A stretch of 64,000 bases of DNA from a virus. The DNA is taken from IMG/VR virus record IMGVR_UViG_3300031608_000001, positions 1-64,000 of that record, one strand, 5' to 3'. Every line of letters starts with the position of its first letter. Within the stretch, counting starts at the first letter, position 1. Position numbers and translations under genes: made by a program. This document shows, in pieces, positions 36,365 to 55,043 of this stretch. The notes under the pieces were generated by a model, which saw nothing but the letters and a program-made list of their open reading frames with translations, had not been told where the DNA came from and searched no databases.

Positions 36365-37033
36365 ATGAGTAAAGAATATACATACTATACAGTAGACAAG
36401 ATTATGAATACTCCGCTTATCGACACCGATAAGATGTTTGTAATGAATGTTACAGAATTTATGCATCCTGAATTGTATGCCAATGTAATGGAAGAAGTAC
36501 AGGCATTAACTGATTGGCGGGCACCTGAAATAACAGGCAGAAAGAACTATCATATAGGACCAGATCAACAGCACCCACACTGGATTCAAATAGCAAGAGA
36601 CACAACTTGGAAGAATGAATTAGTCAATGATGCAATACAATCAAGGTTCGATCTCCACGAGGACATTATTCTTGGGGAGCCATTGATGTGGCAAGACGAT
36701 AACACCAACGGCATCAGTGATGTACATGTTGATAGTCCGGCATACTATTATACATATCAACATTGTCTAGCAACAGACAACGAATTTGCTCATACTGGTA
36801 CTAGGTTTTGGGAGGTTGATTGCGAATACAATCAGGCAATTGATGAAGGACTAGATCCATGTTTTGGTGAGGATAGCACGTTAGTGAAAGAGGGATTACA
36901 AATGCCTTATGTACCTAACCAAGCATACATATTACCACGTGGTAGCCGTGGCTGGCATTCATGCCCTGATCTAACACTTGAAGCGGACCATATGGAACGC
37001 ACGATGGTTTATATGATTGTTACGAAGGCGTAA
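36365..37033 (+). CDS. 2OG-Fe(II) oxygenase-like protein (plus strand)
   Basis: 222 aa. Iron ligands H121 and D123 (DVHVDSP) and a distal H198 in PRGSRGWHSCP, with R212 placed to bind 2-oxoglutarate. HTGTRFWE (143-150) matches the beta strand between them. Unlike the two minus-strand oxygenases it lacks the WFGNP pattern. There is no ribosome-binding site; a CATAAATA motif lies 5 nt before the ATG, suggesting a leaderless late mRNA. It overlaps the end of the convergent gene at 37020. Substrate unknown. Confidence 0.62.
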   Translation: MSKEYTYYTVDKIMNTPLIDTDKMFVMNVTEFMHPELYANVMEEVQALTDWRAPEITGRKNYHIGPDQQHPHWIQIARDTTWKNELVNDAIQSRFDLHEDIILGEPLMWQDDNTNGISDVHVDSPAYYYTYQHCLATDNEFAHTGTRFWEVDCEYNQAIDEGLDPCFGEDSTLVKEGLQMPYVPNQAYILPRGSRGWHSCPDLTLEADHMERTMVYMIVTKA

Positions 37034-54149: not shown

Positions 54150-54282
54150 ATAAAAGTTAACTGAGTTGCTAACTTATAGTGGTTTATTGCTAAATATTTT
54201 TGCAATGATTTATAACCATTTAAAAAGTTATTTCACCCATAAGCACCGTAAGGCGAGGAAACTCACTTACGGTTTTTTTATG
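54150..54282 (+). promoter_or_regulatory. Structured leader of phoH with attenuator-like hairpins
   Basis: Three inverted repeats in the 180-nt leader: AAGTTA/TAACTT (54154-54175), a TGGTT/AACCA pair enclosing TTGC/GCAA (54179-54219), and the terminator stem (54245-54273). No plus-strand gene precedes it, so the hairpins probably regulate phoH or end a short RNA. No consensus promoter is clear in 54120-54180. Confidence 0.5.
54245..54279 (+). terminator. Intrinsic terminator inside the phoH leader
   Basis: ACCGTAAG, inner GAG-GAAA-CTC hairpin with a GNRA tetraloop, CTTACGGT, then T7 (54273-54279). It lies 24 nt before the phoH ATG and just upstream of its ribosome-binding site (GAAGGAGACA). 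Confidence 0.82.
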
Positions 54283-54302
54283 ATCACAAGAAGGAGACAA
54301 AC

Positions 54303-55043
54303 ATGTCACGTAAAAAACGAAAGGAAAGAGAATTCAAGGCGAGCATTCGCCAACTACAAACGGAGGATTTAATATTGAAACTTGACACCAGATACTTGAA
54401 CAAAACGGCAAACGTAATAGTTGTACCTAAGAATATAACGCAGGACACATTACTAGAATCTTTAGAACATACGGCAACCAGTATAACCTTTGCTGTAGGA
54501 CCAGCAGGCACGGGCAAGACGTATATAACGACAAAGAAGGCCATTCAAGCATTAACGTCAGGAAGAGTTTCAAAACTAATCATTACTAGACCAGCAGTAA
54601 GTGTAGACGAACAACACGGATTTTTACCAGGAACACTACAGGAGAAAATGGCACCCTGGACAAGACCGATCATCGACATTCTCGAGGAACACTTCACACC
54701 AAGTCATATTGAAACCATGATTGAATCGAATATTATTGAAATAGCACCATTGGCATACATGCGTGGTAGAACATTTAAGAATGCTTTTATTATCGCAGAC
54801 GAAATGCAAAATGCGACAGAGGAGCAAATGAAGATGCTATTAACAAGAATAGGAACTAACAGCAAATTAGTTGTAACAGGCGATTTGAATCAACATGATA
54901 GAGGTTTCGGTGACAACGGACTAAAGGACTTCTTAAATAGAATTAAAGACAAAGACTCAAATTATATTAAAACAATTACATTCACTGCCAAGGACATTGA
55001 AAGGCATCCAGCAGTTGCCGAAGTACTCAGTTTTTATGATTAA
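54303..55043 (+). CDS. phoH: PhoH-like ATPase
   Basis: P-loop ATPase widespread in marine phages. Walker A GPAGTGKT (66-73), ITRPAVSV (94-101), Walker B DEMQN (166-170) and LVVTGDLNQHDRG (about 187-199) are complete. N-terminal 45 residues are basic. 246 aa. One of only three plus-strand genes, preceded by a terminator-bearing leader. Linked in bacteria to phosphate starvation and RNA metabolism; its phage role is unsettled. Confidence 0.93.
   Translation: MSRKKRKEREFKASIRQLQTEDLILKLDTRYLNKTANVIVVPKNITQDTLLESLEHTATSITFAVGPAGTGKTYITTKKAIQALTSGRVSKLIITRPAVSVDEQHGFLPGTLQEKMAPWTRPIIDILEEHFTPSHIETMIESNIIEIAPLAYMRGRTFKNAFIIADEMQNATEEQMKMLLTRIGTNSKLVVTGDLNQHDRGFGDNGLKDFLNRIKDKDSNYIKTITFTAKDIERHPAVAEVLSFYD

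Follow-up and report, generated by a model that had tools for sequence, protein, structure and literature searches.

What does an intrinsic terminator do between a promoter region and the ribosome-binding site of phoH, a gene that is widespread in marine phages and whose function is unclear (PMC3037559)? The window (the whole 64,000-nt stretch analyzed) comes from a 66.7-kb IMG/VR fragment of a marine phage and encodes a phage DNA polymerase. Its phoH is a single plus-strand gene amid minus-strand genes and adjoins a virion gene, a placement also seen in Pseudomonas phage PA5oct. The earlier note on this sequence had stated that no plus-strand gene precedes the terminator; this holds for annotated genes close upstream, the nearest being 36365–37033, but overlooks a conserved plus-strand upstream reading frame (uORF) that runs across the terminator. 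The features discussed here are collected in Table 1.

Table 1. Features of the phoH leader and gene (window coordinates)
Feature	Position	Strand	Basis
T4-type late-promoter-like octamer, GCTAAATA	54189–54196	+	TAA[AG]TA element in relatives; start predicted at ~54202
H-type pseudoknot, 28-nt element	54203–54231	+	covariation; match to bacteria-only model
Pseudoknot helix 1 (AAUG with CAUU)	54204–54207 / 54217–54220	+	
Pseudoknot helix 2 (AUAAC with GUUAU)	54212–54216 / 54227–54231	+	
Pseudoknot A5 loop	54222–54226	+	
uORF, 55 codons	54205–54372	+	stop-free frame; regular start and length in relatives
Intrinsic terminator, CCGTAAG GC GAG GAAA CTC A CTTACGG TTTTTTT	54245–54279	+	fold z; covariation
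Terminator outer stem, seven pairs	54246–54252 / 54266–54272	+	
Terminator inner stem, GAG/CTC with GAAA loop	54255–54257 / 54262–54264	+	
Terminator T7	54273–54279	+	
phoH Shine-Dalgarno, AAGGAG	54291–54296	+	read from sequence
phoH, 246 aa	54303–55043	+	PHROG 170 PhoH-like, E 8.8e-75

The terminator described earlier, with its GNRA-loop inner hairpin and T7 ahead of phoH, is borne out. For the 46-nt hairpin the folding energy is −14.8 kcal/mol (z −3.9; as stable in 0 of 200 shuffles), the 156-nt leader region has a fold z of −3.6, and 23 nt separate the end of the T-run from the phoH ATG. Leaders were compared using phoH homologues taken from viral contigs; a hairpin abutting a T6–T7 run recurs 20–32 nt upstream of phoH in leaders with PhoH down to ~55% identity, with fold z of −1.7 to −4.8. 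Double changes were found at each of the first four stem pairs in the 22 leaders tabulated (pair 1, CG20/GC2; pair 2, CG16/GC6; pair 3, GC16/TA2/CG2/AT2; pair 4, TA15/GC6/CG1). Because the stem sequence varies while pairing is retained, the hairpin and U-run are maintained and not due to chance; a stable hairpin, an adjoining U-run, and compensatory changes together identify an intrinsic terminator. A sigma-70/terminator scan returned nothing beyond shuffles and did not report the phoH terminator, presumably owing to its internal loop. Two further upstream hairpins had also been proposed, but the candidates (54154–54175, AAGTTA..TAACTT; 54186–54206, ATTGC..GCAAT) are absent from relatives and either precede the predicted late promoter or overlap it, so they are probably not part of the RNA. 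The conserved upstream structure is instead the pseudoknot of Table 1, which the earlier list lacked.

A TAA[AG]TA element stands at a regular position, ~106–142 nt upstream of phoH, in all 33 uORF-type leaders. Promoter activity at GCTAAATA, and hence the start at ~54202, is inferred from this resemblance to T4 late promoters, in which transcription starts six bases past the octamer. If that spacing holds here, the uORF would begin at about +3 to +8 in relatives, where its start lies mostly 7–12 nt past TAAATA; in the window the uORF AUG is 8 nt downstream from TAAATA (~+4), making the frame near-leaderless. The T4 late promoter consensus is TATAAAT (PMC3037559). The word CTAAATA shows no enrichment in the window and was set aside as a genome-wide promoter word; GATAAATA is more informative, and late-promoter-like sites of this form stand before genes elsewhere in the window, as do the remaining NATAAATA copies. 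We also noted three window genes, at 36365 (+), 50817 (−), and 54104 (−), whose ATG coincides exactly with the start predicted for a TAAATA promoter with a five-base spacer; these are probably leaderless late mRNAs. Outgroup phoH genes (leaders L185–L217, and L339, which is PA5oct, at 1020–1095) have a TAAATA element close upstream too, in short leaders with small 5′ hairpins and no conserved uORF.

The uORF crosses the terminator and overlaps phoH by 70 nt in the +1 frame. Between the predicted transcription start and phoH, 28 of 33 leaders have no stop in the +1 frame; summed over the 33, this frame contains eight stops, versus 81 and 109 in the other two frames. Among 27 terminator leaders, the frame opened by the 5′ start reads past the T-run in 26, and in the exception (L004) it ends within the stem, 17 nt short of the T-run. 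The terminator thus sits inside a leader reading frame, as in pyrBI-type attenuators. Two leaders (L387 and L001) use other frames that are still open, and in L001 and L003 the uORF is fused to phoH in frame. By chance, the frame of a given leader would stay open up to the T-run with a probability of 0.12–0.48, and the product over 20 representatives is ~1e-11 assuming independence, which related sequences do not have. The overlap inside phoH was rejected as a sign of selection: synonymous shuffles are open equally often, so its length is not evidence.

The encoded peptide behaves differently. In most pairs pN is close to pS, purifying selection on the uORF amino acids is not consistent across these pairs, and a search against PHROG gave no match below E 0.06. 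A conserved peptide was accordingly dropped as the main reading, also because tandem copies of the pseudoknot in Bacteroidales break the frame. With the frame kept open while the peptide varies, it is the act of translation, and not its product, that appears to be conserved. No uORF was found in the outgroup phoH leaders (PA5oct, Phosso, Atu_ph07, and the freshwater clade).

In a PhoH tree, all uORF phages form one clade (96/87); at least two terminator losses occurred in this clade, with the uORF retained. Eight uORF leaders have no terminator, and the leaders without a T-run are C-rich and G-poor, a composition that hints at Rho-dependent termination. Elsewhere, freshwater relatives (L032–L049) also have no T-run in the last ∼90 nt of the leader (e.g., L033, around 2640–2731). 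There a hairpin, CCTACTT..AAAGTAGG, covers the phoH Shine-Dalgarno in competition with a GTAGGAC/GTCCTAC pairing farther upstream, and this arrangement may be a translational switch. A separate observation concerns two almost identical leaders (L001, 2880–2930; L023, 2875–2925): PhoH of the window clade and of L023 are only ~58% identical, and the leader may move among phages as a cassette.

The 28-nt element at the predicted 5′ end of the RNA forms an H-type pseudoknot with nnAUG/CAUnn and NNAAC/GUUNN pairings and five A's as its last loop. The uORF AUG lies within a strand of helix 1, a few bases from the predicted 5′ end. Many phoH leaders have ATGATNNNNAACCATNNAAAAAGTT in common, and this pattern, derived from phage leaders alone, had 22 matches in viral contigs, all 22 directly upstream of phoH; a control pattern with two bases altered gave four viral matches at unrelated places and none at phoH. 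(The bare 14-base motif AACCATNNAAAAAGTT was discarded as a viral-contig query, being too short for specificity.) Covariation was assessed over 35 sequences: 43 cells showed double changes compared with 15.7 in shuffles, and none of 500 shuffles scored as high. Pair 6–23, which adjoins the AUG and whose column was left free by the pattern, is paired in 33 of 35 (AU16/GC10/UA4/GU2/UG1), and pair 7–22 is AU33/UA2; in phages alone the pair beside the AUG is kept in 11 of 12 (permutation P ∼ 0.001). Four of five whole-structure measures exceeded all 500 shuffles, and the fifth (how many pairs carry a double change) was reached in 51 of 500. Sliding the pseudoknot partners abolished the signal.

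About a dozen lineages have no pseudoknot, and the uORF is kept in leaders without it. Relatives lacking the knot often have the start codon covered by a 5′ hairpin instead (L015, L017, L024, L030, and L184); over 11 representatives the combined p for such hairpins is 0.009, a modest suggestion of the same logic built from another structure. We also observed ATGGC directly downstream from the T-run in most terminator leaders (window 54273–54284; L001–L235), even those lacking the knot, and TTTTTTTATGG is complementary to CCATnnAAAAA in the knot loop.

The same element occurs in bacteria. A pattern search of 84,980 bacterial and archaeal genomes returned 49 loci, 42 of them directly upstream of metE (21), metK (11), or mesX (10; PF08908) in Bacteroidota; one further locus precedes phoH, on a contig of a gammaproteobacterial MAG, and six are unassigned. 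In metK leaders the element is present as a tandem pair, and one metE leader also has a cobalamin riboswitch upstream. Both helices of the bacterial loci show compensatory changes, and the bacterial copies alone give the same covariation picture as the full set. A model built from bacterial sequences alone (R2) had a sole match in the window, at 54199–54235, with an E-value of 2.2e-7 that is flattered because the bacterial copies were retrieved with the phage pattern. For the same reason, shared invariant bases were set aside as proof of phage–bacteria homology, being partly circular: The phage-derived search partly imposes the invariant columns and not the covarying ones, and we relied instead on gene association and the free columns. 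The element is sparse in class Bacteroidia, with four of 295 genomes at one mismatch, some of the four being chance-like. Apart from these loci, several Sphingobacteriales leaders (L471–L482, 75 nt upstream of metE) have no pseudoknot and share another conserved block, GCTTTTAAC.GATTTATT..TTAATC..TTAAAAG.

An aptamer-like element with covarying structure, found in leaders of related genes (42 of 49 loci), is what is expected of a riboswitch. A search of Rfam with the window and its relatives found no family at gathering level, and none of the SAM riboswitch families of Rfam 15 matched at E ≤ 10 (L379, 1850–2010; window, 54180–54310). A search of the freely accessible full-text journal literature yielded no description of the pseudoknot. 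In bacteria the element acts as RNA and not through a peptide, since translation of copy 1 of Bacteroidales tandems often gives MIGNH-stop and copy 2 may lie in a different frame. Burial of a start codon is not its general function either, given that in some Bacteroidales copies adjoining metK without the full pattern, AUG is replaced by UUG with a compensating change of CAU to CAA. The genes that bear the element synthesize SAM or SAM precursors, which makes SAM or a closely related compound the most likely ligand; it would turn expression off. The earlier suggestion of a phosphate link gained no support; gene association indicates methionine/SAM. A strong Shine-Dalgarno is unusual among Bacteroidota genes, and that of this phoH is strong, so the phage and bacterial pseudoknot copies may belong to different hosts. 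Sequence comparison establishes the terminator, the uORF, the pseudoknot, and the order in which they stand, as well as the occurrence of the knot in metE, metK, and mesX leaders.

The earlier note had named lack of leader conservation as one thing that would refute its reading, and the leader proved conserved. Its attenuator or riboswitch interpretation remains the best one, given the conserved leader, the covarying terminator, and an aptamer-like knot, shared with methionine/SAM genes, between promoter and terminator, but it missed the translation component: A conserved reading frame crosses the terminator, which makes it likely that translation takes part in the switch. What we propose, tentatively but as a real prospect, is a two-step cis-regulatory switch, in which a ligand-stabilized knot gates the uORF and uORF translation gates the terminator. 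The T4-type late promoter would begin an RNA whose first nucleotides form the pseudoknot. When the knot is stable, probably with ligand bound, the uORF AUG would be buried and the frame untranslated; with no ribosome on the uORF, the hairpin and U7 would fold behind RNA polymerase and phoH would be off. In the open state of the knot, a ribosome could initiate at the 5′-terminal AUG, trail the polymerase through the hairpin, and block termination; read-through would then allow phoH to be transcribed and translated from its own Shine-Dalgarno.

We further infer the ligand and its identity (gene association makes SAM or a related compound of the methionine cycle probable), control through burial of the start codon, and ribosome-dependent antitermination. 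Leaderless initiation requires an accessible 5′-terminal AUG, according to Brock et al. (2008) as cited in PMC5312081; ribosome dependence is established for terminators inside translated leader peptides and for those shortly past stop codons (PMC4824070, PMC5021804); and riboswitch–uORF coupling is known (PMC11260477). Several points count against the two-step switch. Unless it pauses, polymerase often arrives at a terminator within the first 100 nt of a frame ahead of the ribosome (PMC4824070); the parts are separable, as the terminator-less leaders and knot-less lineages attest; and some Bacteroidales copies have UUG in place of the AUG.

The closest rival is a plain pyrBI-type attenuator in which uORF translation and the terminator suffice and the knot is a ligand-free element for 5′-end stability or ribosome loading. 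Retention of the uORF in knot-less leaders, the 5′-terminal start-codon hairpins in several of them, and the Rho-site-like composition of T-run-less leaders all fit this account; we nonetheless judge it unlikely, as a ligand-free stabilizer leaves the knot's presence before metE, metK (in tandem), and mesX of Bacteroidota unexplained. Those same loci make it rather improbable that a protein (PhoH itself or a regulator) binds the knot in an autoregulatory loop: A single protein would be needed in both phages and distant Bacteroidota, binding methionine-gene leaders. The idea draws on H-type pseudoknots known as translational operators, such as that of T4 gene 32, and on the proposal that PhoH-family proteins are nucleic-acid ATPases.

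It is very unlikely that the uORF is a real gene, or that its T_TTT_TTT heptamer directs a −1 frameshift into phoH to give an extended PhoH. The T7 is in frame as T_TTT_TTT, with phoH in the −1 frame, in most terminator leaders, and the fusions in L001 and L003 are suggestive, but the peptide is not conserved, the T7 lies in a different frame in L016, L018, and L020, and the uORF is present in several leaders without T7. Least probable of all is a trans-acting RNA of ~75 nt with incidental phoH read-through, the stand-alone short RNA of the earlier note, which nothing supports: A promoter, structured RNA, and terminator need no downstream gene, but the knot always lies directly upstream of phoH in viruses (22 of 22) and of metabolic genes in bacteria, and the linker and hairpin sequences are not conserved.

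Beyond the two-step switch itself, it is possible, if somewhat doubtful, that the 28-nt knot represents a new riboswitch class, likely responsive to SAM or methionine, that controls metE, metK, and mesX in Bacteroidota and is used by marine T4-like phages in the aptamer–uORF–terminator circuit of phoH. If so, it would be among the smallest riboswitches known. As a short, concrete candidate that can be tested directly with synthetic RNA, the pseudoknot is the most valuable part of this work. A leader that senses a metabolite would tell us what the phage responds to when making PhoH, and an aptamer, a near-leaderless uORF, and a terminator would together constitute a new way of linking sensing, translation, and transcription.

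SAM-II-type riboswitch folds are pseudoknots. The SAM-II, SAM-V, SAM/SAH, and SAM-II long-loops families (RF00521, RF01826, RF01727, and RF01726) are likewise small and precede metK or other methionine genes, but their conserved bases differ from those of the phoH/met knot, which has no match among them even at E up to 10. The candidate phoH promoter, with its TAAATA-type octamer, resembles the T4-like late promoters of marine myoviruses (PMC3037559), and the window also has a phage DNA polymerase gene and GATAAATA sites; GCTAAATA differs from TATAAATA at two bases, and the phoH leader has a start codon just a few nucleotides downstream from the predicted promoter. In the Mycobacterium tuberculosis metE/ppe2 system (PMC11260477), a B12 riboswitch is coupled to a short upstream frame whose translation determines how much of the downstream gene is expressed, but with a large cobalamin aptamer, translational control, and reinitiation, whereas the phoH leader has a 28-nt pseudoknot and an intrinsic terminator. 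Closest in layout is the Escherichia coli pyrBI attenuator, where an intrinsic terminator also lies inside the translated leader frame (pyrL) and ribosome coupling suppresses termination (PMC4824070, PMC5021804), as we propose for phoH. At pyrBI, read-through depends on translation and on a UTP-dependent polymerase pause; the phoH-leader frame, for its part, is near-leaderless, extends into the regulated gene in a different frame, and begins in a pseudoknot common to methionine genes.
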